A stretch of DNA of 64,000 bases from Siniperca chuatsi. Lineage: Eukaryota > Chordata > Actinopteri > Centrarchiformes > Sinipercidae. The stretch lies in contig NC_058057.1 of assembly GCF_020085105.1 (NCBI RefSeq), forward strand, positions 22,975,082 through 23,039,081, in the 5' to 3' direction. Position numbers and translations under genes: made by a program. Below, piece by piece: positions 4,401 through 48,357 of the stretch. Every line of letters begins with the position of its first letter. Positions within the stretch are counted from its first letter, which is position 1. The notes beneath the pieces are model-generated. The model worked only from the letters and a program-made list of their open reading frames with translations, ran no database searches and was not told the DNA's origin.

Positions 4401-6483
4401 TGGTGCTTTGTAATTTTATTTATTTAGTTTCTTTTTTTTACTCTAATGTAAACAGTTTTTTTCTTACTCTACTGTTGTTTTTTTGTTTCTGGCCCTGCAA
4501 TGCCAAGCAATATATTTTTGACTGAAGCTGTCTGAAGCCAGTGCTTTTTTCTAACTCTATATTCATTCATGTTTAAATTTAAGCATTTTAATACCCAAAC
4601 AAAATTGCATGTATTCAATGTTTCTCCCTCAAATCTCCTTGTCAGTTCGGGGGAGCCCCAAAACAGCATTTAGATCTTTAAATAGACATTAAAGCTTTTC
4701 ACTCAAATTCAGGACCAGTACTGAAAAGCGAATCAGTCAAACTGCACTGGAGCTGGACTACAGCAGACCTGACGTCAAATGAAAGGATTAAATATAACCC
4801 TTCTGTATATATCAGAAAACAAGTATTCATTTAAAAGCTTTATAAAAGCGCTTTAATATTTTCTTTGTATAAAGGCCCTCTACACACGCAGTTGTGCAGT
4901 ATGCATCATTTGAAGCCCATGTTGTCGTTCTCTCTCTGCTCTGCTCTGGTCTTGTGCTGTCTGTCTGAGCGTCTGTTAGGAGATTAGAGCAGATTAACAT
5001 AATCTTGATTGAGAGAGCAAATCCAAGGTGCACATCACTCTCGCCATCAGGGAGGGATGGGACAGATCAGCCACATCAGAGCTGGAGTGTGCGGGGACCA
5101 GCAGATGGCACGTCTATCACAATAACACATGAACTGAAGTCGCCAATTGCTGATTTTGCTCCTAATTCTTGTAAAATATTGTCAGAGAGTGTCTTCTCTC
5201 TGCAAAACTGAAGCCCTCCAGAGTTCATTCCTCTTATATTGTACTCTTGTTTCCTTTGTGTTGTTGTTTTCACTCCATTGATCCCAGTGAGGCCAGTTCA
5301 TGACAGACCTGTTTGTGTTTCAGGTCTGGACCTGCTGTCTCTTTGACTAAAAGACAAATGACCACTGGTTAGTGCGCAACATATTTCCTGGTAATTTAAT
5401 TGTTCATTATTATTAAATTTCACAGAGCTTATAGTATAGCTGAATAAGACTCTTAGTAATATTGTTTTATTTTATGTTCATTCATTACATTCTGTCACAC
5501 TAAATACCAACCAAAACCTTCGTCTTTAAAAAATACTTCACTGTTCGGCTCAGATTATGCTATTTGATCAACACAATGCCTACTGGTCAACTTTACTTTA
5601 CATTTTGGAATAGATAATGACGGATTATTAGATAAAAAGTTGCATCGACTATGACCTCCCGTCTGCACTTATTAGGTAAAATAACTCCTCAATATGAACA
5701 CGAATCAGATACATTTTCAGCAAAGGTAAAGGGTTTTATATCAGCCAATTGTATCAGGAGGGTGAACTGACTTCAGGTTGGATTTTCCCTCCAGCTCTGG
5801 TTCTTGGCTTACACTCTGGTCCAGACCTGGTAAATGGCTGTGAGGTGACTGCTGTTACAGTAATCTGATTAGTCAGACTCAGATTAAACCACTGCATGCC
5901 ACAGTAATTGACCAACACTTTCCGGACTCCACATTTAGAAACTCCCTCAGGCAGATTTTGTCCAGGAGAATCAAACACTGTGTCAACAAGTTATACAGGC
6001 ATAACGGGTTGATTCCTATGCTTATTTCCACATTTGTGCATCAATTAAAGAAATGTAAGATTGAAATAAAAACAGGTAGGCAAGACATCTGAAAACTTGG
6101 TATCTGTGCTTATAGACTTCAGAAAAGAGTCTCCCATAACTTAATTTAACAGACAAATGATGCATTTTGTACAGGATGTTTTTAATGGTAGAACACATAT
6201 TTTGAGTACAAATTGTACAACTGAGCTCCAAACTGGACCAAATGCTTTCAACATTCTGCTGCGTGGATCCATGAAAACACCAGTTCATCTCTGGCAGAAT
6301 AAGATGTTGGTATGTTTTGGTCATAAACTGATTTTCACATGTCTGTGTTATTAAACTCAAACTGATCCAGATTGTGTTACTCTCCACAGAGACTGGAGCA
6401 CAGATCCACCAAGGGTGAGGACACCTAACAAAACATTCCACATTCGTGTGCTGTCTCCTCAACTGTTCACAGGCCTGTAATAA
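4401..6483. other. Intergenic, nothing recognised
   Basis: No coding exon or known repeat end recognised. Open frames of 60-154 codons on both strands, the largest at 6022-6486 on the minus strand, have biased composition, no flanking splice logic and no similarity I know. Confidence 0.45.
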
Positions 6484-28000: not shown

Positions 28001-31000
28001 CTTGAATACGCCCCCTTCACAAATTCAAAAAATGAATTAAACCCCAGTTTTATATGTCAGGGGGTAAAAGTGACGTAATTCAAAGGCATGGTGTTCCAGG
28101 CAACGTTATAGATTTTTCACAGATTTTTTGGGGTGGTCTAGTGGACAGAATTCCTGGATTTTCTCTGGAAAAGGCAAAGAATCTCTGTCGTAATGTATTG
28201 ACCAGCATCAACTGGCAGTATAATACAGTGACTGTGTAGACATAATTTACTGACTGAAAAAGTGGATTTAGTGTTGAGTTACTTCTAAAGCAATCAAGTG
28301 TAGGTTTAGTTTGGCTAGATGAGAACGATGACCAAAACACCTAAAAATTTGTGTCTCCATCGTATTCCAAGAGAAATTAAGTGCAGCTCAGGAGCAACTA
28401 TGGAATCCTAATCATCTTCAGGAAATAACCATAAAACACAAGGGTGCAAAGGAATAAGAAGGTAGATGTCGATAAATAAATAAAGTCTTGACTGAAGCTC
28501 ATATTTAGCTATGTCCTTATGTGTCCTCATGTGGTCTTTCTGAGCACCAGAAAAGTAAAATTACAACACAGAGAACTGAGAAGTCAGTCACTAAAATCTC
28601 TAAACTGTTAGATTTCAATCACTTTGGTTTACACGTCATAGTTTGCTTATAGCAGAAAATTAAACAAAGCAAATATAGACATAGATCATAGTGAACTTTT
28701 CCCCTGTCCTTCAGACCAAAGAAGACAAATCACGTTCCACCAAAGAGTCTTTGGTCGTTAGCTGATTGGATTTCAGCGTTGACAGACTAAACAGGCTTTT
28801 CCCTGTGCTCGCAGGATCGCAGATCCAGACCAGCCAGTTCTGTGGTTAGACCAGATGCCTGCCAGGAGTCTCAGTCGAGGCTTCAACAATCATATCAATC
28901 TCATCAGGTAACAACTTTGCCCCGAAGACGGAGTCAGACATGAGTCCCTTGAGCGACTTGAATTTCCAAGCGGCCTTGCTTGGGGTTTTTCTCAACTCTG
29001 TAGTGCAAAAACATTTATTTAAATTCCTTGTAATACGACCCAGTTTCTTCAGTTTTTAATTTACTGTAGCCTTGGTTATGACAAGCTCACTGAAAGCACT
29101 TCTTCAGAGATACAAAAGCAGCTTTTTTTGACAGTGTGTTGAAATCCTTTTTTCTTTTTTTCTTCAGAGGACAGATTATCAACATCAGATACCTGGCCTA
29201 CTTTGACAACATCCTCGACTTCATCAAAGACAGAATACTGGTGTACCACGGGTAAATTACCCCAAAACTTCATCCGGTTTCTATCGTCTATGACTTAAAA
29301 AAAAAATCTTATCATAATATTCTGCACTGCCTGAGTTGCTGCAAAATCATCTATTGTTTCATTTCTTTCCATCACAAACTCTCTGCATTCATTGAAAAAC
29401 TCATTTGAATCAAAGAACTCCAAATTGCCCTAAATGCTAGCACAAATTAGCCTAGCCATAACCCAGTGATAGCTGCATATTTGTGTCTAGCATCAGCATG
29501 TCTCACCTAAATTATTTGACAGCAGTTATGTTAATATGCTACTGTATGCTGCATACAAAGCAGGATTATGTAAAAAATGTTTTCCTCCAGGCTTTATTCA
29601 TTTTGCATGAGCGTGTTGAGGAAGTGTCTTATGCAGATATAAATGAATATTTTTTCTTCATCAGTTTCCTCCCTCTTCTTTTTTTTCTTGCTGCTTCTTT
29701 AACTAACAAGTTCTTGTTTTCTGTCTCAGGGCATACAACCCCAGAGGACTCTTAGAGGTCCGCCAGGCTCTCGAAAATGTGAATAAAGTAGAAGATCTGC
29801 TTCCTATAATGAAGGTAAGGACAAAAAAAGCGGGACATTAGTTGAGAAGGAAGTAAATAGATAGACAGATAAGATAATGTGTGCATGTCTAAATTAACGA
29901 TTAAGATTGAGTTTGCTCATTTGCCATGGAAATAAGTAACTGTACGTTAAGTTTTGATTGTTTTGTCAATTGCTGTTTCCAAGTTCAAAAAGTGAATTGT
30001 CAAGATCGACATTTGGTTGGTTTATAATGTCAAATGTTTTACTGTAAAATCCTTTGAAGCAGCACAAGCTCTAGTTCTTTTTTTTTTGTGGTTGTTTTAT
30101 GTCTTATAGCTGTTCAGCAGTGAAAACCCAGTATGGTTGTTTGTGTGTTTATTTCCTGAAGCAGTTCAACAGTAAAACCAGAGATGGCTTTACGGTCAAC
30201 TCCAAGGTGCCGAGCATGAAGGATCTTGGGAAAGAGTACGACGGTTTTACCATCACCATCACTGGAGACAGGTACGGCGTCTGCCAAGTGAATGTAATAT
30301 AATGTAATGTACAGTCTGCCTTTTGTCTTTTTTCTGCAGTATATTTAAGGTTAAGTAATTTGAATAAAATGTGAAGATATAATAACACTCCAAGCTTGAA
30401 TAATATAAATTAGAAAAATATAAATATTTGAACATTATAGATAAGAAATGCATGGAGTTCCTAGAAGGTAAAAAAGTACAGGAGAGCTGGAGGACATTGA
30501 AGTATATAAATGTAGGCAGGTATGCACAATGGTTATTTATTTTTAAACTCATTATTACAGCAGGTAATGACAGTTTCACAGTTTATCCATGGAGCCCCTG
30601 GTGTCAGTTATGCAGGAAGTTTCCAGTTTGTTTGGACTACAATGATGATTAAGTGACTACTAATTCCCACTTCTGAACTGTTTTCTGTATTTTAGGGTGG
30701 GCAACATGTTATTCTCAGTAGAGACTCAGACAACAGAAGAGCGGACGCAGCAGTACCAGTCAGAGATAGAGTCCATCTACAAAGACCTCACCGTCAAAGG
30801 AAAGGCATTAATGCTGTCCACTGAACTGGGGGTAAGGCTGATCTCTACAATTATCTGGAAGCTTTGGCATTCCATACATAATAAAAAGCAGAATTATGTT
30901 CAATACAGTGATTTGTGAGATGACATGAAACATTAAATTTGTGGACATTTTTGACTATATGTAATCTTGATTAGAAAAAAGGGGTCTGTGGATTATCCAG

Positions 31001-34000
31001 AGTAACCAGGATGTTGTTTTCAATACTTTAAATAGCACAACCAAACTTCCATTCACCTCAGTTGTATTGGGGTGGAGGCAGAAGTGTCAGCGGAGGAGAT
31101 CTCGTAACCTCTGCAAATAAAATGTGATAGATGGTTGTAGAGCTGATGAAATGAGTGATTTAAGTAATTTATCAAGCAAAAATGACAAATGTTCTCTGGT
31201 TCCAGCTTCTCAAAAATGAGGATTTGCTTCTTTTCTCAGTTTTATATTACTGTAAAATTAAATCTTTGGGTTTTGGACTGTTGGTTATAGAAAACAAGAC
31301 ATTTGAATATGTCACCTTGGGCTTTTGGCAAACAAAATGGCCATGTTGCAGTATTTTATGACATTTTATAAACAATATATTGATTAATAGGGACCTCGTG
31401 TTGCAGTTGTATTTATCACAAACTTTTTTTTGGGGGGGGTGAACTGATCTATTAAATTACTCTGCTGGGGATTGGGTCATTGCAGCATTAGATGTTTAGA
31501 GTAAACATAAGAGAAACAGAATAATAGTGAACTGGGCTTAGCAGCCAACAGTTTTAACACGTTAAGTATTCATCTCATTTCAAGTCGTCAGTCAGCACAG
31601 CAGTTCCCCCTGAGCATCTGACAACAATCAACACATTTTGCAATTGAAATTCTCTCCTCTCCCCTTATTTCCCCTCCTTTCCTCTCTTCCCCTCTGCAAG
31701 AATGTCACAGATTTCAGTTTTCTAGACAGGCAAACTAGGGAGGGAATTGAATTAATGCTTTGGAGAGTATCACAATAACTTTAACAATAGATCACTTTAC
31801 AGGATTTAGCAGAATGTATTTTCCAGCTGTTTGCTGTAGAAGCCTTTCAGACTAACTGCAGTGAAAAAAATAGACTTTAGAGAAATATTATCAAACCACG
31901 AAAGAAGCATTTTGACTTAATAAAAAGTCTCTCTGTTCAACCTTGACTTTCTCTGACTTTCTCTTATTGTTCAGCTTTCTGTTATTGTTACTTGATTTGC
32001 ACTGATAGCTGTGAAGGCACCCAACAATGTCCTTGTTGTTGTAACACCAAGACAAGGGTATTGACTGATCTGAAACAGATACCTGGAACAATATCAATAT
32101 CCCTCTTGAGTTTTGATCACCCTGTCTTGATAAAGTGAAAACAAAGACAATACAGTGAAGACAGTTAAAAATGGTGGACATGTCTGTAGACACTCTTGCT
32201 TCAGGGCCAGTTTATGATGTTACAGTTGACTCTGTGATCACCTTTGTTCTTTCAGGATGGAGATGCAGTGTGTAATCTGATCCTCTCTTTGATTTATTAC
32301 TTCTGCAACCTCATGCCCCTCTCCAGAGGATCCAGGTAATTTCTAAGTCCAAACAGCCTTCAGGCGTAACGTTAAATATTTCCAATGTCTAATAACCCAT
32401 GGGAGAAAGTGACGTTGTGTTCCTCTGTGATGTGCTGGGACAGGTTTAACTATTGTGTGAGTAACTGTCTCTTTAGTTTACGTTTTGAGTCCGATCCTCT
32501 TTGATAAAAACATTTCAGGTCAAAGTATAAAAATTAAACATGTTTAATACTAATTAATTACTCCTCCACATGAAGTTTCTGGCAACTTTCTGGAGAGGAA
32601 ACCTGCCAGGCTGCAGGTCTTAGCGCGCTGAATGCCCTTGCTTGATTTATGCTCGAAGAATAGCATGTTCTACCTTTAGTGTGCTATAGAGCAGTCCCAA
32701 GTTTTAACTGTAACTATTATAGTGTGTAAGAGTGTTTTCCTGATCTGCTTCTCTCCAGTGTTGTGGCTTACTCAGTCGTGATGGGGGCACTGATGGCCAG
32801 TGGGAAAGAGGTCATCGGTAGGATCCCAAAAGGAAAGGTAAACGTGAGCCCCTTTCAGACATGCACCTCTTCACGTAAATATGATGGAATTTTGACATGC
32901 TGGTCTCATGTCTGAATAAGCTCCTGAATCAGACTTCAGTGTTTTACAAAACACTTTCAGCACGGCACAAGTCTCAATTAAATGCCGTCAGATTAAGGCA
33001 AAGAGAGATTAAACACAAGTCTTGTTTGCCCTGATCATGATCACTGTAATACATTTCTCACTGATCATCTGCCGTGCTCATAGAAATTAAAATCAGTCTA
33101 ATAAACTACAAAACACTGTGAATGAGATGATGTTATGCTGTTATGTAGATTCTTCTCATGTCATCAGTCTAAAAATATCTTCTTTTTTTTTACTTGTACA
33201 ACCACAGTAATAATGAAACCACTTGTCTCCCTCCTTATATTTCCATCTTTCATCCATGAAAATGAAAAACACTTTACATAAAGCATGTGAGAATGGGAGT
33301 TAAAGTCCCAACTTAATGTCTGATCAGAACAGAAAACACTCTTTATTTCTTTTAATTGTTTAACTTTTCAACTCTGCCACCCAGGTGCCAAATATCGCAC
33401 AAGCACATGGCTTTCTCCATAAAATGTGTCATATCTGAATAAAGCTGTTAGTAACATTTACGTAAAAGACACCTATGTCTGAATGACAAAAAGCTATCAC
33501 TTTAACAGCTTGATACAGCCAACAATGTTACATATTCCATGTATGAAAAGGGCTATAGTTTGTCTGAGCAAAGAAATCCAGTATATGAAAGACTAGTTGA
33601 GGATCAGTAACTCCTATTTTTGTTTTTGTGTCCAAATAAAAGGTGTACATTACATAAGAGCCTGTCATCAACCCCATTGATGGATTCAGAGCCTCTCCAA
33701 GCATTGTTTCTAACACATTTATTCAGACGTTTTGAAAAAGAACTGGGAAGCTTGGCTGAAATTTTCACCTATGTTGCACCTGCCAAGCAGACATATTGTT
33801 CCTGAAACAAAATCACATCGGACAGAAACAAGGCAGCGCAGAAATCTGATCAGGTGTTAGAAAGCTGAAGTCTGCGAAAAGTTCAGCTGAGGAAGCTCGA
33901 TGACTGTCCTCATAATGTTCTGTTTGCTCGACTAAAGAATTCCTTGTGATTTGTGGATCTTAACGAATGAATAAAACCTTTGACTGATGAAACGAGAGAA

Positions 34001-34839
34001 CACAGATTAAAAAAAACTGTTCATGTTAAAAGCCTAAGTGCAGACATATTGCTGCTAGTGTGCACATGAGTTCAAAAGAGAGATTTTCCTTTTCAATTTT
34101 GTTTATATTAATGATTTATAGAGGCCTGAAAACTCAATATTTCAGGCAATTTTGAAAGTGGTGGTCCTGAGGTGTCCCAATCTATGGGTTGGCTTACAAC
34201 CCTGAACCCCTTGGCTTGGTGTAAATGGCTTGTTTGTTTTTTTTTTGCCTTGCCAAAAATAAAATTTGAAAAAGGTAAAGGGAGCTTGCAGCAACAGAAA
34301 GTTGTCTTCTTAACATTTTTGCCACATAGCACCTAACTGTGTCTGTAAAGCTGTATGTCATTGTTATAGAAAGACTTTGTTTGTACCTGTCTGCACTGCA
34401 AAGCAAGAGCAGGATTGCTGGATGTATTCGTTCTGAAGAGTGGTCTGCCAAATCACCATGTTTTGGCGTGTAAAACGCTTGCTTAGTAGGAGGAGGGAGG
34501 TCAACATGAAGAGAACGGGTGTTTTGAATGTGCCCTCTAAACTGTGTTTGTTTAATATTGTTTCAGCTGGTGGATTTTGAAGCCATGACAACACCCAGTC
34601 CAGACAACTTCAGTAAAACAGCAAAGAGCTGGATGACTCTCAATAGGTAGGAAGACAAAACATGTTTGTTAGTTATTCCTCTTCTTGGCAGAGACCCTTA
34701 TTTAATACACTTCTTCCTCAACAGTTTGCCAACTTGGTACCAGAGTCTTCCATCTGTAGCAGACACCTTCCCGTCAACCAGAATGATGATCGAGGTTCTC
34801 AACACAGACTCGTCTTCACATTGTCCAAAGAAGTCCTAA
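15080..34839 (+). CDS. ttc13: TTC13, secretory-pathway tetratricopeptide repeat protein (23 exons, 826 aa)
   Basis: Coding exons: 15080-15248, 16728-16822, 18257-18332, 18441-18511, 18683-18748, 19654-19746, 21060-21176, 21266-21376, 25650-25732, 25887-26028, 26328-26502, 26891-27047, 27629-27759, 27845-27977, 28815-28907, 29168-29251, 29730-29814, 30162-30271, 30696-30831, 32256-32335, 32759-32837, 34567-34646, 34725-34839. All join in frame with GT-AG introns (2481 nt). The start MAPASRDVVVVALSLLYL is a signal peptide and matches the MAPA start of human TTC13. Seven TPR-like helix pairs lie at about residues 113-352, for example YKSLGQAYRELGDFESA and LRGMMLYHHGSLQEA. The long conserved C-terminal half includes HWAKNLPFLIEDYEEQPG, WRDMFDIAVKWRRIADPD and GKEYDGFTITITGD. 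Length is close to human (about 860 aa). Molecular function is poorly known; the signal peptide points to lumenal or secreted location. Intron 8 is the longest (4.3 kb) and holds LINE and family A sequence. Confidence 0.97.
16836..16884. repeat. (CA)n microsatellite 13 bases after the ttc13 exon 2 donor
   Basis: About 24 CA units. The donor GTGAGATC is at 16823-16830, so the tract sits directly at the 5' end of intron 2. Confidence 0.97.
18840..18915 (+). repeat. LINE 3'-tail-like fragment (ttc13 intron 5)
   Basis: GAAATGTGCAATAGAAATAA followed by AGTTTACTTACTTAATTACT resembles the 3' end of L2/CR1-like LINEs (gtgctatataaataaagtt plus a short tandem tail). Only the tail remains. Confidence 0.5.
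23272..23679 (-). mobile_element. L1-type LINE fragment, ORF2 C-terminal region (ttc13 intron 8)
   Basis: A 135-codon minus-strand frame contains phrases typical of the region after the reverse transcriptase in fish L1-like ORF2: DKRFESWTRKGLTTY, ENDFFRYL-type text (EQNDFFRYLKVRH), YKILKSAFSLIPS and ENTLYICRKVG. It has no start of its own, no splice context and no upstream RT domain, so it is a truncated dead copy lying opposite to ttc13. Confidence 0.75.
24060..24610 (-). repeat. Dispersed repeat family A, copy 3 (ttc13 intron 8)
   Basis: Reverse complement of the family A text, with two to three tandem internal modules. On the plus strand each reads TTGACTTTTCCTCTAGCGCC-like, then CAACTATTAGATGGATTGCC and ATTCATGGTCC. 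The modular repetition (at about 24140, 24290 and 24410) suggests internal duplication. Confidence 0.75.
24985..25490 (-). mobile_element. L2-like LINE 3' fragment with RT C-terminal relic (ttc13 intron 8)
   Basis: The minus-strand frame 25259-25474 contains HITPILASLHWLPVAFKIDF and KILLITYKALRSLAPSYVAD, the C-terminal signature of L2/Rex-type non-LTR reverse transcriptases. Further 3' on the same strand comes AAGCACTTTGTAACTG, GGTGCTATATAAAA and an (ATT)n tail at 24991-25022, the usual 3' end. The fragment is 5'-truncated. Confidence 0.85.
30990..31130 (+). repeat. Dispersed repeat family D, copy 2 (ttc13 intron 19)
   Basis: GTGGATTATCCAGAGTAACC, CTTCCATTCACCTCAGTTGT, GGGGTGGAGGCAGAAGTG and GAGATCTCGTAACCTCTG match the copy at 11300-11570. 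Confidence 0.7.
31150..31405 (+). repeat. Dispersed repeat family C, copy 3 (ttc13 intron 19)
   Basis: Holds GGTTCCAGCTTCTCAAAAAT, GGATTTGCTTCTTTTCTCAG, CACCTTGGGCTTTTGGCAAA and a TGTTGCAGTTG end. Confidence 0.75.
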
Positions 34840-36354
34840 CACGACTTCTACACAGGAGTGAAGTCTGTTTTTAATTTAAAGTCTTAATAATGAAGCTTCT
34901 ACACTGGGCAGAACAAAGGGACTGTCTTCTTCTGCAACCCAAACAAAACTGGACTGAGTTCTCCAAAAGCATCTTGGCTTTAATGGTAATTGTTTAAATT
35001 TTAAGACGGAAAATCAAAGTGTTACTTGACACATTTGGGAAGCAGATAGTGCCAGTCCTGGATAGAACTGATGTGATATTGAAGTGGTGACCATTATTTG
35101 GTTTGTGGAAAGCTACAATTAATCTTATTTTGGTATCAAATCGCCCCTCCAAATCCGGCTCTGTTCTCTGTCATCCTCCCTTAAAAACCCCCTCAGACAT
35201 GACTCTTAAAATCTCTAAAAGTTCTTATACCACTTATGCTGGATGCTTTTAAATGCATTGTAGGCCAATGTTGTCACAAAACCTGAATTTTGACTTTGCT
35301 AGCATAAAAAAATTGCCTCTATTTTAGCACCACAACAAACGACAGTCACAGACTGTTACTTGTGTTGACATGTTAATTGGACAACTGTGTATCAACTCTC
35401 TGCAGTAGTTTTAATATTCTTTGTAAGCGATAGATAGATAGCTGTATTTGGCTTCTGCCGCCAGTTTAACATTATATTATATTGACGTGAACTGGGAGCT
35501 GGTGGTCTGTTGAATGATTTCAGGTGTTTGACCTCCAACTGCAGCAGTCAACTGTCAACATCCAGGCTGACGTTTTTATTTTCCAGTTCTTAATTATTTT
35601 ATGATAGAATTTCAGCTCACAGAACACATTTGGTCAAATTATGTAATGTTTATAAAGTTCAATATTGATTCAGTCTTGTGTTCAGGGAGTTTTGTGACAA
35701 CACGACCTTGGATTAGTCCGTATTTCCACTCGCCAGCTGTTTGGGGGTCGATGATCGAGAACATTAGTGTCACAGTTTGGGATGCAGAAGTGATTCTGTC
35801 CACCCTCTCTTTTTCTCTGCTTTATAGGCCAAACGGTGAAACACCTAAAGCACAAAGTCCATCTCATGATACATCAGCATGAACAATCTTATGCTGCATA
35901 GTCAAGGTTCAATCCTAGCTATAGATTACATTGAACTTTGAATTGGATGTTAATTTGTTAACCGTTGTTTAAGTTTTGGATTGATGCTTTCTGGTATCTA
36001 AAGAGTTTTTCTTTAACATTCAAGATTGTATTTGGCACTTATTTTTCAACCACTGCTGTGCACACACACACAGTCCAGCCTATCAGCAGAGAAGGAGTTC
36101 TGGGATTTTAAAAATATGAAACAAAAACCTTCAGGGCTATTGAATTCCACTTGGGATACTTGAAGCAGTCTCTTTTTATTTAGTTTTCTGGACACTTGCA
36201 GGAAGTGTCACTTCTCTTATCAGGTGTTGAACTCCGCTTTCTATTAATGTGACCAATAAAGGCTTGGTATAAAGATGGATTGGCTCCTGAACTAATATGA
36301 GAGTAACAGTCAGAGATTTTAGAGAATTTTCAGAGAGCCAAATAAAGTCTCATG
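34840..36354 (+). other. ttc13 3' UTR and flank
   Basis: Follows the ttc13 stop codon. AATAAA signals stand at 36255-36260 and 36341-36346, and another at 36878-36883; any could end the transcript. No other exon is recognised. Confidence 0.5.
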
Positions 36355-36790
36355 TAGGGCTGAAAAGATATTACAGTTAATCGATAAGTCAATCGACAGA
36401 AAATTAAACAACAGCTACAAAAAAAGAGATTAATTATTTAAGTGACGTATCAAGCAAAAATGCCAAACATTTTCTGGTTCCAGCTTCTCAAATGTGAAAA
36501 TTTCCTGTTTCTCTGCGTTTTATGTCTGATGTTATGTTATGTTTTGAGGACAGAACTTGAAGACGTCATCTTGGACTTTTCTGAAATTAGTATTTAAGTA
36601 TTTTGACGTGTTTTCTTATAGTTTCTTTTACATTTACAACTTGACACAGCAGAGAAATCATGGCTTACAAGTCTATGAAAAGAGAAAAAGGAGCAGCCAA
36701 CACTTTTCTGATATTTTAGAGACTAATCATTTAATCTCTCCTTTTTTATATAGTTAATTTGTAATGAAAATAATAATTAGTTGCAGCCCT
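36355..36790 (+). repeat. Dispersed repeat family C, copy 4
   Basis: Starts AGGGCTGAAAAGATATTACA, has TTAATCGATAAGTCAATCGA, GGTTCCAGCTTCTCAAATGT and ends ATTAGTTGCAGCCCTGGC, giving the most complete outer ends of the family (AGGGCTG..CAGCCCT). Confidence 0.8.
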
Positions 36791-38339
36791 GGCTTCATGT
36801 CCTTCTGGCTATGCATTGTGGCGGAGGGAACTTTAAAGAGTAATAAGCTGCATTCAGTCATGTTTCATATCGGAATGAATAAAGGGTAAATGCATCCTGG
36901 TTATTACATAGTAGTGTGATTCGAAAAGCTGTGAAACAGTACATTTACATTTTAAAGTTAATTTATTTAATTTGATCTGACCTTTGTCATATAATAATTA
37001 AAAATCCAAACCGGAGCAACTAGAAGCTAAGAAGTAAAGACTCCTGAATGTTCTCCGACATCTCTGACTGTTGGGTCTTGTAGAGGATTAATTATAGACT
37101 GGGGAAAAGCACACCACATACTGTTATGTTCTTTGTTATCATTCCTTTAGCTTGCATTGGATGCCATCTGTGTCACTCACATTTATTTTCTTTGGATTTT
37201 CTTATGATCTCCTGGATACAATGTGCTTGTACGAGCCGTTCTTTAAGACACATTAGAGTAATATTTTGGGAGAAAAGAGCTCATATCCCTCCAAATGTCT
37301 TAACCATCAAATATTGTCAGTATATTTTTTCCTGGTTCCTACATATGTGTGTAGGTTAACTTTGCATAGCCAAATTTCCGTCATGTCATGTTCACAGATG
37401 TCCGGAGAAAACCTGGTCAGAATAAAACTGGATGAAGAGGAAATCCTCACAAAGACATTTAATTGTCTGTAAATTTGAAAATGTTTGAGGAAACATCACG
37501 TGTGTGGTTATCTGTTTGATGTTTTCTGTTGTGAAAGTTTATTAGTTTAAAAGTGAATCTGACCAAGTGTTGTCATTGGGTTTCTCCAGATCTCTTGGAG
37601 GTTGACAAGATTGAATTCTGGCTTTTCATAATTCGAGATGATATTGTTTTAATCTGGCAAATGGGGTAATCCTGCGTGGGAAGTTAATGCGATGTGATGT
37701 TTACATGCAGCAACCTTATGAAACAAAATACTTGAGTGAGTGATATTGAGGCTACATTAGTGTGTTTGCAACTGCTGCCTATGTTTTTTAATGACTCATC
37801 AATGTTGGTTTAAGCACAAGGAGGAAATGCTTACAAGCTCAGCAGGTAATTCACCTGGAATGATCTGAAAGTATTCAGTCTTTGGAACAAATGTCAGCAC
37901 TTTTCTTTCTCTTTAATCGCAACCTTAATGAATTAGAGGCCTTTAATGCTAAAGTATCATCACTGAAAGTCATGTCAATGCAGTAGTTCTTAATTGAATG
38001 TCCGGTTTCCTGATTTTGTCATTTTATTAGATCATTTCCACAAAGTAAGAACAAATTGACCTGTTCAATAGCATATCTAACTCATTTCTTGCATTACTGA
38101 CAGTCTTTCTTTGTGTCACTTTATTTTAATATCAGTAATTGTGCTGACTGGTTGTCATTTTATTTTTTGCACTTGGTGACCCAGTCATTAAGTGCTATGG
38201 TGGGCTTAAAGCTTAAAACTTGAAGGAGGGAATGTTTTATTGAGTGAATGAATGAATTTTCAGCAGTCAATAAAACTGGTTGACAATTTTAACAGACTCT
38301 GTTGTTCTTTTTTGGAAATCTTTCAAAAAACCTGATCTG
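36791..38339. other. Intergenic, nothing recognised
   Basis: AT-rich. A short frame following a possible AG acceptor at about 37400 (MSGENLVRIKLDEEEIL) has no similarity I recognise and no partner exon. Confidence 0.4.
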
Positions 38340-38957
38340 TGGAAGCCCACTTCCACTAAGATGAGAAAAAAACTACATGAAAAATGAGGTATGATACAGT
38401 AAAAATACTCATAGTATGTCAAAAGTCAAAATAAAGAGATATTACGTCAACTTTGGACTTTGTTAAATTTAGGAGATACTAAGTCAATATTTTGACTTAC
38501 TAAATTAAAATTATGAGATACTAAGTAAAAAGATTTAACTTATATAAATCAACATTTTGACTTACTATGTTGAAATTATGAGGTATTAAGTAAAGATTTT
38601 GACTTAAATTTATGAGATACCAAGTCAACATTTTGACTTACTAAGTTAAATCATTAGATACAAAATAAAACACTCTGACTTAGTTAGAATTATTATGCTA
38701 AGTCAACAGTTTGACTTACAAAATTTAAATTATGAGAAACTAAATTAAAATTTGTACTTATTAGGTTAAAATTTTGATATTCTAAGTCAACATTTCCTTT
38801 ATTCGGTTACATTTTTGAGATATTTAGTGATACTGACTGAGGAAGTCAAAATGTTGACGTAGTTTTTAGTAAGATGGATTTACCATGAGTATTTCTATTT
38901 TTATCATGCGTAACTTTTCATGTATTTTTTTCTTCTAAAGGTGGAAATGGGCTTCCA
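38340..38957. mobile_element. DNA element with about 75-bp inverted ends and internal minisatellite
   Basis: The left end TGGAAGCCCACTTCCAC and the reverse complement of the right end, TGGAAGCCCATTTCCAC, match. The match continues imperfectly for about 75 bases (ACATGAAAA, CATGATA, AATACTCAT). Between them lie about ten imperfect units built on ACTAAGTCAACATTTTGACT and TTAAAATTATGAGAT, themselves partly palindromic. No coding capacity. No target duplication could be fixed by eye. Confidence 0.85.
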
Positions 38958-39060
38958 TACAAAGTGGACTGACATTACGTGAGCTTTCTTAGACGACTTT
39001 ACGTTCTAATAATTTCTACTGGTAGTTTGATTTAACCATTCATATTTAAGATTGCTTAAT

Positions 39061-39125
39061 AATGATAATAATAATAAACCTTTATTTCTATAAAGATCCA
39101 ATGCAATGTGCTACAATGTGATCTA
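39061..39125 (-). repeat. LINE 3'-tail-like fragment
   Basis: TAATAATAATAAACCTTTAT and the following bases look like the reversed tail of an L2-like LINE, as at 24985. Only the tail remains. Confidence 0.4.
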
Positions 39126-39256
39126 CTTGACATTAGACTTAGTATAATATTCTGCAACTGCAGTATTTTATAATTAGATTTAGTGAGAATGACTTAAATC
39201 TACCTGCCATTGTGAAACAGCACAGATTCTGTTGTTTGTGCGTTGTGTATTAACAG

Positions 39257-39418
39257 TACAGTTTGAGACTGAGACACTTTGATCAATGTTAGAAACTCCT
39301 CTTGGATCTCATCAGACATTTTGGATGACTGCCATGACCAGGCCAAGCAGTGCGTGCTCACAGTGTTGTTCCAGAGAAAGAACCTCCGCAACTACATTTT
39401 GTGTTGATTAACAAAGCA
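39257..39418 (+). pseudogene. Relic of selenoprotein L exon 6 with both UxxU TGA codons kept
   Basis: Read in the frame of selL exon 6 (43761-43875), the text gives KLLLDLIRHFG at 39293-39325, then TGA at 39326-39328, Leu-Pro, and TGA at 39335-39337; the live exon reads KLLLVLIRHFG, TGA, Leu-Pro, TGA. Nucleotide match is strongest over CTCATCAGACATTTTGGATG. A TAG at 39290-39292 breaks the frame just upstream, and the 3' part is deleted. An 18-base match to selL intron 6 (39398-39415 against 43950-43967) shows that exon and intron were copied together, so this is a genomic, not an mRNA-derived, copy. No other selL relic exon was found nearby. Confidence 0.88.
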
Positions 39419-39439
39419 GGTTACAATTATTGATTGCAT

Positions 39440-39530
39440 TTACTTCTCCCCCAGTTTACCACATTGGTATCAGAGTCCTACATATAGCTGACCTTCCCGT
39501 CTACTAGAACTGTTATTGTGTGGATTTTTG
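39440..39530 (+). pseudogene. Relic of the last coding exon of ttc13
   Basis: A pyrimidine-rich acceptor ending CCCCCAG at 39454 leads into text that aligns with ttc13 exon 23 (34725 on): TTTACCACATTGGTATCAGA here against TTTGCCAACTTGGTACCAGA there, and CCTTCCCGTCTACTAGAA against CCTTCCCGTCAACCAGAA. In the ttc13 frame it gives LPHWYQSPTYS then a stop, against LPTWYQSLPSV. A small deletion and substitutions follow. Retention of the intron-exon border again indicates a genomic duplicate. Confidence 0.85.
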
Positions 39531-39970
39531 ATATAAACATACATTTTATCATTCAAAAGATCAGGTGTGTAAACTCTGTTTAAGTGGGATGTACACTCAT
39601 ATGTTCTGCTTATATTTAATGTATGATGTTTGATTGAAAAATTTAGTTACCTGTACTACCATACCAGGTGTTACTAGCCACTTTCCAGTTTAAGATTTTA
39701 CATAACATATGATCTACTATGCAGTGTTATGGATTATTACATTATTATTACATTATTATTACATTATATTGTTGCTTTATCTGTAAATATGAATCATATT
39801 TATATCTTATTTAAATATATTTGAGTAAAAACTTGAATTCAGGGGTTTTGACTTGTAATTATGAGTTTTTAAATGTTTTTTTTTTTCTTTTCTTAATTTC
39901 TTGCCAGTATTAATGCTCACCACTAGGTGTTGCCGAATCCCACACAAGGTTTTAGCACCACATGATTTTT

Positions 39971-39980
39971 GTCACGTGGT
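39971..39980 (+). promoter_or_regulatory. CACGTG E-box upstream of selenoprotein L
   Basis: GTCACGTGGT, about 70 bases before the ATG, matches E-box sites used by USF and MITF/TFE factors. Its use is inferred from position only. Confidence 0.45.
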
Positions 39981-40048
39981 CAGGATGCATTTAAGCTCCT
40001 GGGGCTGTGGGTTTACTGTCAGTGCAGGTGAGAGGAGAGCTGGTGGTC

Positions 40049-42521
40049 ATGGCTGAGGATGTGGCTGTATCAGAGGAGACTTTAACAAGTAGTCTGACTC
40101 TGTTGGTCAACTTGAGCAAAGTCCTTCTGCAGAAAGCCAAGCAGGAAGCAGAAGGTAGGACTGATCTAGAAGAGCACTCGTAGTGACAGACTTCATTGAA
40201 AATTTGAAAGTTTTAATGTGTTTTGTTGCCAAGAAAGGTAGACACCACGTAGAAAATGACTTACATGTTGAGTGAATTGTTTTGGTTTTATGAGTAATTC
40301 GGCATGCAGAAGATACAAATTAGCACTTAATTTTATGCTTTAATAATGCTGTAAAATACTGCTTTAATTGTGTAACGTTAAGGGGGCAGTTCACCCCCAA
40401 ATCAAAAATACATATTTTCCCTCTTACCTGTAGTGCTATTTATCCATCTAGATTGTTTTGGTGTGAGTTGTTGAGTTTTGGAGATATCGGCCATAGAGAT
40501 GGCAGCATTTTTTTTAATATAATGCGACTATATGGCACTCGGCTTGTGGAGCTCAAAGCGCCAAAAAATACATTTAGAAAAACTCAACATCAGTGTCTCT
40601 TTACAGAAATCATGACCCGGTTACTCAAGATAATCCACAGATTTGTTGTGAGCAGTTTCATGTGGAAACTATTTTCTTTCTACCGATAGTTCCTACATGA
40701 AACTGCTCACAACAAGGTCTGTGGATTATCTTGAGTAACCGGGTCATGATTTCTGGAAAGAGAGATTCCTGTTGAGTTTATCAAATGTATTTTTTTTTTT
40801 TTTTATTTTTTTTTTTTTTGTTGCTTTGAGCACCACAAGCTGAGTGCCATATAGTCCCATTATATTCAAGAAATCCAGATATCTCAACTCACACCAAAAC
40901 AATCCAGATGGACAAATAGCACTAAAGGTTAAGATTAAAAATATGAACTTTTTAAGTTTTTGAAACAGAAGACTGTAGGAAAAACACATGAAGCAATAAT
41001 TAAAGACAAAAATGCATTTCAATTCGTGTTCCTGAATAGATTATATGTACTCTGAATTGAAAAGGATTTCAGATTAATTCTGGTATAGTGTTTAACTTTG
41101 TTTTATAACCTACAGTGTATATATTGTTCCCAATAAGCACAACAGCATAAAAATGCAGGGAATTTAATGGCAGTCCATCCATTTTCACTATGTATGATAA
41201 AACCTATAATAACACATCGAATAACATACTTTTAAGCAGCTGCATATGTTATTACTCTACTCACCTATTTCATGAGGCTCGGTGTTAAGGTGAACCACGT
41301 TTGTCACAGTTACCATGTAATATGATTCTAATAAAAAGTCTCCTTTTTGAATATTTCACAAGTTGGCTACAACACATGCTCATAGTGAGTTGTTAAAGCA
41401 GACCAGTGTGATCGAGTCACTTTTAAAGGATTAAAGGGCCCCGCAGGCATGAAGGTGGTGCAATGTAATTCCTGTCATGCTTATTGCCAACACAATGATA
41501 TTGCACAAATCAGCCTGGCCAATAACTATGGCCCTTTGTTCTCATACAGAGTCCCTGGAGAAGTTTGTCCCATATAAGATCACCACTTTATTCGGCCTGA
41601 TCACAGCTGGAGCAGACTTCTACAAAAGGTGAGGGGCTCTCAACACCTGCAGAATCACACAATCATTTGGCCGTGTCATTGGCTGAAATATAATTAAGTC
41701 AATCCGCTGTTTTAAATTAAAATTGTACTGTATTTTTATACTGTAAAGTAAGTGTGTGTTTTGTTGCTGTTGATCAGGCTTGGAGTGAAGAAAAAGAGTG
41801 AAGCAGAGGCTGTTTGGCAGAAGTCTTATCAGTAAGTTTGGGTATATAATAATATAAAATGATGATAATAATAAATAAATTTCTATCTTATTGTTATATC
41901 GTGGGGAAATGTTCTTAATATATAGTTCAGCTGTGATAACATGACTGAAACATGTTGAGTGACAGTTAATTGACGTGGTTTACTATAATTCATTTAAGTG
42001 GTGGATAGTTTTCCGGGCCTGTCCTCATTCCCGCCAGCAATTTGATTAGTCTAAACTTTTATGTTTGTGATAAAAATAGTAGTGATGAATTACAAGTTTA
42101 TAAGTAACTTTGCTCAAACCTGCACTCGTATAACTTGATGTCACATCAGCATCCAATAGCTAAAGACATAACGTACACTGGGGTGAACCCTCATTATGAT
42201 AGCTGCTGATGGGTGTTGGATGTGTTCTTCACGCTGCAGTGAAGACGGTTACAGTTACTGTGGTTGATTACTGTCTTATTAGTTATTAATGGAAATGAAA
42301 GCTCAGTGTTGACACCTCTTTATCACACAACTTTTTGTATTTTTTCCAGCCATGCAGCAGTGAGAGAGCAGGTAGAGGAACTTCTGCAGCTGGAGGTCTG
42401 TATGTGTGAACATTTTTATTTAGTTTTTCATTTTGCATATTATGATTTAAATGCAGCTCTAGTGTTTTCACAGAGTAAACAATCAGATTCATAGACCTGT
42501 ATAGTAAAATGCAGTGTGTGT

Positions 42522-42560
<39 letters not shown>

Positions 42561-45500
42561 TCTTAGAGAGAATAGTTTTACATTTGAGTAATAAAAAATG
42601 TAATAAAAATAAGTGTGTCCACATAGATTCCTGCAATAAAATTGGGTCAAATGGCAGTACATATACCAGTATTGACGATAATCAGAATATTTAAAAATTA
42701 AATAGTGATATCATGTTAATAATACACATGAAAATATCTTGTAAATAATTCAGTGCCACTTTGTCATAATAGGTGGTAGTAATGCCCCTTAACGCTGGTT
42801 GCCACCCGACATATAATGAAGAAAAAAAAAAAACAAGACGATGCAGTAACTAGCTAGCTTTTAGCTATTTTTTAGCTAGCTAACTTTTCCCCAAAATTTT
42901 CTATAGATATCGCGGTACTATCGTTATCGTGAATTCTTTTGGCCATGATAATCGTGTAGTGAAGATCTGATATCGTGACAGCTCTAGTGTAGCATTAAAA
43001 CATTTAATAAAACTGACATAAAGCTGTAAGATCGATCTAGACTTTGATGCTTTGTGCTCTTGTTAGCTTAGAAACAAGAGTACAGGATTATGTCTAGTCC
43101 AGTTTTTGCCATTTTGTTATACACCAGTTTACTATTCCTTTAATTATTTCTAAATAATTACAGCAATCACAGCATGTTTTATTCTTGATTTTACATGATG
43201 TGTTGGTTGATGTTGTTTTGTTGTATTTAATTCTTTAAACCAGTCTATGATTGACTTGATATACTGGAATTATTTAGTTTCAACCCTCCTGTGTGTCTCT
43301 GTGTTTGTGTTGCAGAGTGAGTGGGACTCCTTCCTGGAGAGTGTGGACCGAGGTCTGCAGACAACAGATGGACAGCTGTCAGGAGGAAAGATAGCAGACA
43401 GCCTGAGCCCTAATACTCTGTTCACTGATGGACGGAGTGGGAAGTGAGTTCACACACTGCTGGTCACAAGCTGACCTTGAATGTTTGCATTGTTACACCG
43501 TTAATCAGCATGAGACCGTCCCTGTCTAACAGAACACTAGGTTGCAGATCAGACTATCAGCTAGTTTTAGGTTGTTTGTTGTGTTTTTATCAACCAGCCT
43601 TGGATGGGAATGTGTTTTATTGTTAATTATAAACCAAGATTTGGTTGCTCATCAGTACAAAGATCAAATTTTACCATGCAACAGATAAGTATTTCATTAA
43701 ATCAAGTTTTGTTGTGCCATTGTGGTTTCTGAGGCTGTTTCTACGTTGTGTGTTTTAAAGGAGCGTGACTCTGGGTCAGTACCTAGGTCAGGGTCAGAAG
43801 CTGCTGCTGGTTCTCATCAGACATTTCGGATGACTACCGTGACGAGACCACGTGGCCGAGCTGCAGGCCAGTCAGGTTGGTTTACCTTCATCCTGATGGT
43901 AATTATTTATTCTTAGGCGTCATCACATCGCTCTGCAAAACTCCTGTTTTTTGTGTTGATTAACAAAAGCAGTTTGCATCCCTTTAGGCTCTGGCCAAGG
44001 GAAACAAAACCTACCAGTACCACTAAAGCTCACTAGTTAGTAGAGGTGTACGCTTACACACTTACAGAAGTGTAAAAAAAAAAAAAAAAAAAAAAAGTTT
44101 TGGTTTTACACAGAGTTATGTGCCGGACCAATTCTTGGCCAAGAGCAGCGACTTCCTCAGCTAAGCTAACCGGCTGCTGGCTGTAAGCTTCATACTTTCC
44201 ATACAGACTTGCGAGTGGTATCTTCTCATCTAACTCATCTAAGAAAGCAAATAAACTTATTTCCCAAAATGTTAAACTATTCCTTTAACCATGTGGACTC
44301 CTACATCTTTTTTTCTCTGCTCTGGCTGCAAAGGGTTCCAACATTTTTTCCAAAGTGACTGTCTTCACTCAGCCTTGCAGCCACTACCCATTTAATTTTA
44401 TATGAATAAATTACTGGGAAAAATATGGAAAAGTGAGTAAAGAGAATTCTTAGGTTGCTTTTAATCACAGTGTATATTTTACATTTTCTTTCATTTTGTT
44501 TCTCTGTAGACTGTACTGGAGGCAAGGTCAGTGCGGGTCTTGGTAGTTTCTTTCGGCAGTGTGGAGGGAGCTCAGCTGTGGCTGGAGCAGACTGGATGTA
44601 CCTTCGACTTCCTGCTGGATCCACAGAGAAAGGTCAGGATGTGTGTTTTTACCCTAATCAACTGATTGAAACCCAGTAAATTTGACACAATAAGGAAATT
44701 AAGGGGGATTTTAAAAAAAAATGGCTTTGGCTTCGAATCAGATTATAGTAGATTCAATCTGTGTTTGAATTAAATTGTCTGTATATTTTATATTCAGTGC
44801 CGATGGGCAGGTGCATGAAAATTGAAGAGGAAATTGTTATTTATGGAAACTAGACATGGCTGTGACTCAGCACAAACAAGCTGAGGGAACCAAAGGATTT
44901 AGCAGCTGTTTGATGATGTGTCATAAAAGCCCAGTAAGGTGAGCCTGCAAACCATTCATTCTGAAAAGTCAACCACCAGATGTTAGCAGATGTGAGCTGG
45001 AAAAAATATGAAGACAGAACACTTTCCACATGCTACAGAAACAATCATCAATTATGATGTGTGTGTGTGTGTGTATGTGTGAAGAACCTGATTAGGTCGT
45101 TCTGCAAATTCTTTTCATATTGCTGAATCCAAAGCAGATGTTATGTTTTTCCTTGTGCCACAGATATACAGGAGTTTTGGCCTCGGCTCGTCCTATGCCA
45201 AGGTGATGAAGTTCGGCTGCCTGCTGCAGTACTCAGAGTACGGAGCTGTGGACAGAGACTTCCCTGACGTCCCCCCTCACCTGCTGGAAGATATCTACCA
45301 GGTAAAAATGGATGACACAGCTACCTCTTTGACATTGAGTAGGCGCTGATGTAATGGTCTGAATCAGTGACGTCAACCAAGGACATATGTGCCGAAAATG
45401 CAGAGCCGGATTTACGTGCATGAAGACTCAAGGGCAAAAATTAGCTGCTGATTGATTGATAACATCCAGCCACTAGATGACGCACTCCCCCTCCCATTAT

Positions 45501-46283
45501 ATTTCAGTGGTTGCCAGTTTGTTGCACAACCTGCATATTTCATGGTCTAGTGGAGTGAGACTCAGACTCAGTCACATCAAGTGATATATCTTTCATGATA
45601 TAGTAATGAATTCATTTTGCAACATGTAGCTATACATTAGCTAGAGATTTAGGTTACTTTGTGTGGTGGTGTTTAATGTAACGTTATCTATGGTAATCTT
45701 AGGATATGGCTAGCTAGCCAGGTAACCCTTTTTTCCCCATCATTTAATAATTGTAGGGGCCCTATATTGCAACACTTACTGTAAAATTACATTTCGATCA
45801 TCCTTACACTATAAGACATTAGGTAAATATTTAAATTTTAATCCAATCAAAGAGTGTAGTACATTGTTGGGATGCTATTAAAACCCACAGCGCTTGACAT
45901 TAGACAGACAGCTACAGTAAAAGTTGACGTTAGCTAGCGTTAGTGTGGTGTTGACCTAACAGTCAAAGTGTTTTCTTTCTGAAAACAAATCTCATAGCGG
46001 ATTATAAAAGTGATAGTCTTGTGGTGGATCTGTATTACTATCCTGCTAAAAATGTATCTTGTAGCTACAAAGATAAAATTCTGAGTGAATCATTTGATTC
46101 CATGCAAATATAAAAAGTATGGAATAATGCAGCTTTAATGTGTTTTTTTTATTTTTTCAGATGGGAGGTGACTTTTTGCTGGATGAAGCAGGGAAGGTCC
46201 TTCTTTCTCACCCGTCTAAAAACCCTCTGGACAGGCCGGCTATGAAAGACATCCTGCAGGCCGTGGACCCTGCAAAGCTGTGA
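40049..46283 (+). CDS. selenol: Selenoprotein L, Sec-x-x-Sec thioredoxin-fold protein (9 exons, 303 aa)
   Basis: Coding exons: 40049-40154, 41550-41628, 41778-41831, 42350-42395, 43316-43443, 43761-43875, 44510-44632, 45164-45301, 46161-46283. They join in frame (912 nt) if two TGA codons in exon 6, at 43831-43833 and 43840-43842, are read as selenocysteine (residues 162 and 165). The protein starts MAEDVAVSEETLTSSL with a helical N-terminal region. Next come LLLVLIRHFG, Sec, Leu-Pro, Sec, then VRVLVVSFGSVEGAQLWLEQ and TFDFLLDPQRKIYRSFGLG, the peroxiredoxin-like (PRXL2/AhpC-TSA_2) thioredoxin fold, and an end at AVDPAKL. Sec-Leu-Pro-Sec occupies the CxxC redox position. Described fish SelL has this UxxU motif and can form a diselenide. 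Strong downstream coding across three more exons argues against TGA as a stop. The gene is absent from mammals. Confidence 0.96.
40384..40965. repeat. Foldback (inverted repeat) in selenoprotein L intron 1
   Basis: Two arms of about 270 bases, roughly 40405-40680 and 40686-40965, are inverted copies. Left ATTGTTTTGGTGTGAGTTGT pairs with right CTCAACTCACACCAAAACAA, left CATGACCCGGTTACTCAAGA with right TTGAGTAACCGGGTCATGAT, and left GTGAGCAGTTTCATGTGG with right CTACATGAAACTGCTCAC. The centre is a spacer of only a few bases near 40683. A T-rich tract at 40788-40819 interrupts the right arm. Confidence 0.9.
42523..42560. repeat. (GATA)n microsatellite in selenoprotein L intron 4
   Basis: About nine GATA units. 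The intron also holds a repeat-like stretch near 42900-42985 with TATCGTTATCGTGAATT and GATATCGTGACAGCTCT. Confidence 0.95.
44120..44287 (+). repeat. Dispersed repeat family E, copy 1 (selenoprotein L intron 6)
   Basis: GCTAAGCTAACCGGCTGCTG, CATACAGACTTGCGAGTGGT, CTTCTCATCTAACTC and AAACTATTCCTTTAA match the right half of 55860-56460. Confidence 0.8.
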
Positions 46284-47030
46284 AAGATATGTGACCATTG
46301 GAGACACTGAGCCTGGGGTTGATCAGGGGTTTAAGTGGTCTCTTTTTTTAACACATCACTGACACCACAGAGAAAGAGCAGCTCTCTGTCTCACGTTTAT
46401 GACGTCACGTCTTGCTCTCATGACACCATGAAGAGGTGTGACCGATGCAGAAGTGTGAAGCAAAGACAACTGATCTTCTTAGTTGTGTCAGTGTTGTGAT
46501 GGGAGCATTTTTAAATGAATGGTACTACTGGATTACAATGTAATTCGATTTAATTCAATTTGATATAATATAAATGTTGTTTAACTTTAACACACTGATT
46601 TGCTCTAACAGTTTTACCCAGATCTGTAATGTTAGACAGTATGGAATTTCTTAAGGCTTTACTTTAAAGATGCATTAAGCAGCTTTGGTTTTGGCGGTGA
46701 GAGGTCATAATTTTAATTTTGGAAGGTACAAATTACTACATTACCCAGAAATCATGCAACATGATGTTACCACTGGCTACGTCATGAAACGTTTTATCTT
46801 CTATGTGCCTGGTCAGTGTAGAGATGAAGGCGAGAAAAATCTTTGCTGCTGCATCTTTTAATGCAGATACATTTTTAGATAAAACTGTACTTTAAGATTT
46901 AAATCTTAAATCTTGCTTACAGCCGAAAAAAAGATATAACTGCCGCTGTGCTACAGAGCTGATCTTTTTCATATCTATAAATAAAATAAGCACATCATTT
47001 GTCATGAACTGTGAGCAGTTTGAGGGATTT
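46284..47030 (+). other. selenoprotein L 3' UTR and flank
   Basis: Runs from the TGA stop to the downstream MITE. It holds the SECIS candidate and an AATAAA at 46980-46985 that would give a 3' UTR of about 0.7 kb. Confidence 0.6.
46391..46458 (+). promoter_or_regulatory. Candidate SECIS element for selenoprotein L
   Basis: Starts 108 bases after the stop. Lower stem TCACGTTT (46391-46398) pairs with AAGTGTGA (46451-46458), two G-U pairs included. Then come ATGAC (46399-46403) on the 5' side and CGAT (46443-46446) on the 3' side, which supply the UGA/GA non-Watson-Crick core. The upper stem GTCACGTCTT (46404-46413) pairs with GAGGTGTGAC (46433-46442). The 19-base top can form a small TCATG/CATGA hairpin. 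The usual unpaired AA on the 5' side of the apical loop is not seen; a CC occurs in the loop at 46426-46427. The core, spacing and position fit, the loop is atypical. Confidence 0.65.
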
Positions 47031-47414
47031 CTGATGAGTAGGGCTGGGTATCAAACCTTAATGCCTTTCTGTTACCGACTGAAATGTGTCCGTAGCACAG
47101 TATCAAAAAATGTCAAGTACCAAAAACAGAGGCATAGAATATCTGATCAGATTTGTAATCTTATTCTCTTTCTATTTGATCATTATTCATGATTTAAATC
47201 AAAAGTTTTATTCAGACAAAGTTCTTGGAAAGTTGCATATATTTAGACAACATTTAACATTTTAGAACTTTGGTTTCTTTTGTTAAATAAAAAAAAGGGT
47301 TCTGTAGAAAAATATATATATCAATATATCATTTTGGTATCGGCACTGAAACTCAGATACTGTATCTGCACCGTATTGAAACAAATTCAAAGAATACCCA
47401 GCCCTACTGATGAG
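47031..47414. mobile_element. hAT-type MITE with 8-bp target duplication, family F
   Basis: The element is 47039-47406 (368 bp), starting TAGGGCTGGGTATC and ending GAATACCCAGCCCTA. The flanks 47031-47038 and 47407-47414 are both CTGATGAG, a perfect 8-bp duplication. The interior is AT-rich and non-coding. Confidence 0.93.
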
Positions 47415-48357
47415 GTAAATCTTTCTTTTACCTGTGGACTAATCAGAAAATGATGCTGTAAACCATGTCAACCTTTAGTAAAGATTTATGAAAAACATTT
47501 ACATTCAGCGTTTTATGTACAACTTTCTTGTTTTACATACTGACTCTAACTCATGTTACATTTACATACAGTAATGGGGTGTTATTTTGTGGGTGAAAGG
47601 GGATTCAGATGTGAGACAACAGCTCTAAAAATGTTCTGGCCAGATATGCTCCGAATCAGCAGTTTAACAGGGCAGTCACACCGGTATCAGACACTGTTAA
47701 AATATGTTCAAAGATCAGTAAGTAACATTGGCTATTTCCTGCTAAGCCCAAGTACACATTGATTGTATATATATCTTCAAGAGGTTCAGTATGTGCTGAT
47801 TCTCAAGTGCCTTTTCATGTTTTCCCTTCTTTGGAAACTTTGAACAAATATTTAGAATTCCAGGTGTGAAATCACAGCAGAGTCCTGACTGGTTTACATT
47901 CAAATCCCTGCAGCTGCGTGAATAATATAATATTTATAATACTAACATAATATGTCTATAAGTCTTATTCAGTACTTTCAGAACTTAAATAGCAATACGT
48001 GAATTTGTGCACATTTGAGACATAAAAACCTAAAATACCGTGAAATATTTTCTCGGCAAATGTTTTTATCCTGTAAGATACTGACACTACTTAAACAATG
48101 CTACACTAATTGCATATAGAAATTAAATTAGACTGGGTATTTATGTTAAAACACACTAGGTTTCCTATGGAAAATTGAAGACTTCTTTACCTTTCTGAAT
48201 ACAACCAATCCAGGTACGATTTAAAGTGTCTTTTAAGGGGAAATAAGTTATTTGAAAATAACTTAATGGACTTTTATTTCTAATGATCACTGGAGATCAA
48301 AGATTAAGTTAGTAGTAAGGTGGTGAGAGATTAAAGCTATCTTGAAAAGAGTTAATT
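47415..48357. other. Convergent intergenic region, selenoprotein L to clec11a
   Basis: Both neighbours end here (tail to tail). AT-rich, with no exon or repeat recognised. Part is likely 3' UTR of the lectin gene. Confidence 0.45.

Follow-up and report, generated by a model that had tools for sequence, protein, structure and literature searches.

A block of DNA lying between two working genes of Siniperca chuatsi, ttc13 and selL, is probably the seam that remains of an old tandem duplication, with a unit reaching from the last intron of ttc13 to intron 6 of selL. The block extends over about 39205-39517 of the window, i.e. of the whole stretch of 64,000 nucleotides analysed, and consists of a decayed selL exon 6 joined to the decayed start of the ttc13 last exon, both on the plus strand. 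The features of the locus are the following:

34566..34648, plus strand: penultimate exon of ttc13 (reading frame and splice context; tblastn segment of the ttc13 peptide, 93%)
34725..34839, plus strand: last exon of ttc13 with its stop codon, functional copy (frame SLPTWYQSLPSVADTFPSTRMMIEVLNTDSSSHCPKKS*; tblastn segment, 97%)
39205..39257, plus strand: relic of the 3′ end of selL intron 5 (anchored extension score 68, reached by 0/291 acceptor-like control sites)
39258..39345, plus strand: relic of selL exon 6, the Sec exon (BLAST, self-comparison, two-template alignment)
39397..39425, plus strand: relic patch of selL intron 6 (30 columns matching 43949-43978 at 90%, E 4.6e-4)
39422..39426, plus strand: seam between selL intron 6 and the ttc13 last intron (best single switch point of the two-template alignment)
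39453..39517, plus strand: relic of the first ~60 bp of the ttc13 last exon (BLAST, self-comparison, two-template alignment)
40049..46283, plus strand: selL, nine exons (912-nt frame, two in-frame TGA, AG/GT borders; Pfam AhpC-TSA_2 and AhpC-TSA)
40049-40154, 41550-41628, 41778-41831, 42350-42395 and 43316-43443, plus strand: selL exons 1-5 (frame, AG/GT borders)
43761-43875 (UxxU), 44510-44632, 45164-45301 and 46161-46283, plus strand: selL exons 6-9 (frame, AG/GT borders)

The product of the upstream gene is a TPR protein according to Pfam, and we take this gene to be ttc13, while the nine-exon gene with two TGA codons is presumably selL. Its frame holds 303 codons, and the two TGA codons stand in an FGULPUR context. 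The block would leave the knowledge of ttc13 or SelL unchanged: selL has a complete frame at this locus, and those exons of ttc13 that were examined are open. The downstream gene agrees with the account of the two-Sec SelL family in PMC3473315, and it appears functional, judged from its intact frame alone. At the gathering score Rfam reported nothing in the whole window; in the first 1.5 kb past the selL stop (46284-47800) there were four Rfam matches at E<=5, none of them to a SECIS family, and a loose SECIS pattern scan gave five ambiguous folds. The SECIS of selL may have been missed by the model or may be situated further downstream. Intron 1 of this gene also holds nested inverted repeats of ~500 bp (40426-40929), with arms 82-93% complementary, resembling a long fold-back element.

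In regard to the arrangement, an earlier note made from the sequence had given the order as ttc13, selL exon relic, ttc13 exon relic and selL, all on the same strand, and a BLAST comparison of 30001-39450 against 39440-48000 bore this out, both relic pairs lying on the plus strand. The exon 6 relic (39288-39345) matches 43793-43850 with 81% over 58 bp and E 1.7e-9, and fuller alignments give about 64-65 identical bases among 87-89 aligned; none of 100 dinucleotide shuffles reaches its score. The ttc13 relic (39452-39509) matches 34722-34783 with 77% over 62 columns and E 3.1e-6, with 48 of the 63 aligned bases identical. The self-comparison of the full window, with 36 pairs at E<=1e-3, contains both of them. 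Chance similarity or an assembly error can be given practically no credence, since chance would have to produce both of these E values on the same strand and in order, together with the shuffle result for exon 6, and an identity of 73-76% is far too low for an assembly duplicate. With differences of 24-26%, the relics are old rather than near-identical recent copies, as the earlier note had held.

The relics had also been said to keep their intron borders, which proved true in part. Both retain the AG acceptor, and the selL relic retains adjoining intron 5 sequence, which stands out against 300 random windows at 60 bp (p 0.0) and 150 bp (p 0.003), with p 0.057 at 300 bp. On the other hand, the donor end of selL exon 6 finds no alignment in the relic (p 0.37-0.46), and the ttc13 relic ends half-way through the last exon. 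The intron 6 patch has a higher identity (90%) than the exon 6 relic itself; an off-diagonal pair in the same BLAST (30983/40716) has an equal E, so the patch alone would not convince, and the tile that covers it (39350) gave p 0.31, above the p<=0.05 threshold. The 27-30 bp 5′ of the ttc13 relic gave p 0.02 against random windows, and when the same stretch was set against acceptor contexts, 35/291 sites and 2/8 selL acceptors scored equally or better. Retroposition, which had been considered unlikely from the outset, is rejected because intron 5 and intron 6 sequences are kept around the exon and joined intronless exons were not seen. The block is an unprocessed pseudogene fragment, with intron sequence kept and the reading frame disabled. 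In its selL part both TGA codons are retained, 3 bp are missing and a premature TAG (39290-39292) stands where selL has an in-frame CAG, while the ttc13 part carries two 2-bp deletions that shift the frame.

Taken together, the two relics can be read as a single piece with a single seam. In the two-template alignment, which spans 39150-39560, the selL match stops about where the ttc13 match starts. The position of the seam is uncertain by up to ~25 bp; since the ttc13 intron part is short and weak, the absence of filler at the seam holds only to ~25 bp. Copying of both neighbouring genes into the block at the DNA level is supported by these sequence comparisons.

For a partial tandem duplication, the order and orientation (A-B′-A′-B) are those required, and the two matches abut at 39422-39426. 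According to the model that we favour, the unit would have run from the ttc13 last intron to selL intron 6, and because it would be bounded inside both genes, the seam would need no further event. The original ttc13, on the left, would have kept its complete last exon, and the right-hand selL copy would have stayed complete. In the left selL copy only exons 1-6 would have been present; exons 7-9 would have been lacking, as would the 3′UTR, the expected site of the SECIS, and across the seam the donor of its intron 6 would have been opposed to the splice acceptor of the duplicated ttc13 last exon. Such a copy would thus have been non-functional from the start. Deletions to the left and right would subsequently have taken away the redundant spacer and the promoter along with selL exons 1-5 and what remained of the ttc13 exon, so that ~300 bp across the seam were left.

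The state of the copy is consistent with such a beginning. Differences in the exon 6 relic fall on codon positions 1, 2 and 3 in 6/29, 5/29 and 12/29 cases, that is, 11/58 for positions 1 and 2 together and 12/29 for position 3. Such a pattern would be expected for one unconstrained branch (~0.2) together with silent change on the working gene, and it suggests, with small counts, that coding constraint probably never acted on the copy. The corresponding values in the ttc13 relic are 6/22, 3/20 and 6/21, counts too small to inform. Together with the stop codon and the frameshifts, the codon-position pattern makes the copy look dead from birth. The K2P distances are about 0.33 for the selL exon 6 relic and 0.29 for the ttc13 relic; with neutral substitution rates of fish they would correspond to an uncalibrated age of tens of millions of years.

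A tandem duplication should leave homology throughout its unit, on a single diagonal, and this was not found, although later deletions could explain its absence. Only two of 32 tiles reached p<=0.05, one at 34700 on the ttc13 last exon, the other at 39200 on the selL exon 6 relic; the remaining 30 were null, showing no interior homology between ttc13 and the block, with a simulated power of 0.74-1.0 over 30-40% divergence (0.98 at 33%, 0.74 at 40%). An exon scan with approximate borders and 40-bp flanks gave scores for selL exons 1-5 that were reached by 8, 83, 32, 15 and 43 of 100 shuffles, respectively. With exact borders, these exons scored at the null level in the left interval (34840-39150), the simulated power at 25% substitutions being 1.0, 1.0, 0.93, 0.85 and 1.0. 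The 3′ half of the ttc13 last exon found no counterpart in the sequence right of the block (p 0.51, with a power of 0.88 at 25%). There was likewise no match for the ttc13 3′UTR on that side (p 0.90), for the selL upstream region in the left interval (p 0.28) or, left of the block, for the remaining intron 5 sequence of selL (p 0.21); the power simulations covered the tiles, selL exons 1-5 and the ttc13 exon half. In the diagonal-band scan the expected diagonals show no excess, and the sole window above threshold (23/30 at 35570/39873, offset 4303) lies away from the expected offsets. Two exact 12-13-mers do lie on the expected diagonal (35322/39950 and 35496/40037), their host tiles scoring at the control level, and as a trace of duplication they are suggestive only. 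Finally, the 36 self-match pairs of the window (E<=1e-3) include no further pair of ttc13 or selL exons with the interval.

An intact tandem repeat of 4.6 kb, suggested at first sight by offsets that are alike in the two matches (4505-4552 and 4726-4730), was rejected, as tiles, exon scans and band scan found no interior homology despite good power. The similar offsets are not independent support for duplication, because the intervals also hold inserted repeats. One of these, at 36342-36527, is a high-copy interspersed repeat; with 34850-39150 as the query, 41 of 42 matches lie elsewhere, all of them aligning to this part of the query, with 40 of 2183 candidates scored. A degenerate AT-rich tandem array is found at 38429-38795, with periods of 21, 34 and 78 bp, with self-matches and with inverted ends at 38340-38416 and 38881-38957.

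Since no other homology was detected, a tandem origin needs at least two later deletions with complementary ends. Alternatively, the block could have arisen as a one-step insertion: during the repair of a break, template switching would have copied ~220-300 bp from the surroundings of selL exon 6 together with ~100 bp from those of the ttc13 last exon and placed the two next to each other in the spacer. A single event would then explain everything, including the confinement of the detected homology to one contiguous block. We regard this origin as possible though unlikely: order, orientation and place are what a tandem duplication demands and would be one of about eight arrangements open to an insertion, and the two templates lie 4.5-4.7 kb off, on opposite sides. 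The scenario of the earlier note, in which the whole ttc13-selL block was duplicated in tandem and the inner selL and inner ttc13 were subsequently lost, seems more doubtful still. Its tandem element stands, as it would produce the same order, orientation and seam as a partial duplication; its whole-block element finds no support, for it needs an extra deletion joining selL intron 6 to the ttc13 last intron, one step more than the partial unit. Furthermore, other traces of the supposed inner genes were missing among selL exons 1-5, the 3′ half of the ttc13 exon, the 3′UTR and the spacer despite the simulated power, nor did the self-match pairs at E<=1e-3 contain any.

The genome was searched for further copies over 719 Mb in 65 contigs. 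A 310-base DNA query across the block found this locus alone among the matches listed genome-wide, a search that did not list the working ttc13 exon and could miss short copies ~75% identical elsewhere. With selL exon 6 and its flanks as the query, the matches listed were the query exon, its relic and the intron 6 relic patch, and no others. Peptide searches, in which only part of the candidates was scored and the relics themselves were not listed, gave one close selL gene and one close ttc13 gene among the matches listed. Gene fragments are known to be captured by transposable elements, and the interval does hold repeats (36342-36527 and the palindrome at 40426-40929). Such a capture is nevertheless extremely unlikely as the origin of the block, as both fragments derive from immediate neighbours and no second copy was listed in the genome, at a low sensitivity for short diverged copies.

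A distant SelL-like gene is also present on contig C15 (50% over 44 aa). At 22395001-22404900 of that contig (local 2781-4851, weaker from about 1425), tblastn matches it exon-wise at 26-51% to much of selL. It has Cys at both Sec positions (FSCLLCRLHL) and stops within the matched stretches, and could represent an ancient paralogue or a gene in decay. As the source of the relic it was rejected, being far too diverged.

It could also be imagined that the seam survives because it is used, either as a fusion of selL exons 1-6 to the ttc13 last exon or as a regulatory segment of exon 6 and intron 6, and is under selection, which we consider very unlikely. If the tandem origin is true, the locus shows how a duplicated gene pair was trimmed down to its seam, and the block would be a shared-derived mark that is datable and usable in relatives.

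The block is real, but it is an ordinary kind of genomic fossil, as templated insertions, tandem duplications and partial copies in decay are familiar phenomena. No account of the ttc13-selL locus was found in the open-licence PMC literature. With partial tandem duplications that have a chimeric seam between neighbouring genes (tandem duplications were studied in Drosophila yakuba, PMC5460883) the block shares the direct repeat order, the apparent gene-to-gene seam and the truncated copy, whereas here the copy has decayed and ~300 bp across the seam are recognisable. Like an unprocessed selenoprotein pseudogene (mammalian selenoprotein pseudogenes are described in PMC3316567), it is a dead copy with a recognisable Sec region; as a difference, it comprises only one exon and bits of intron. 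In the passages of that article on duplicated selenoproteins of fish, SelL is not named. With templated insertions formed by template switching (MMBIR; PMC8421209, PMC7954356) it has in common that short nearby templates are joined in one insert, while its order, orientation and place match those of a tandem duplication.
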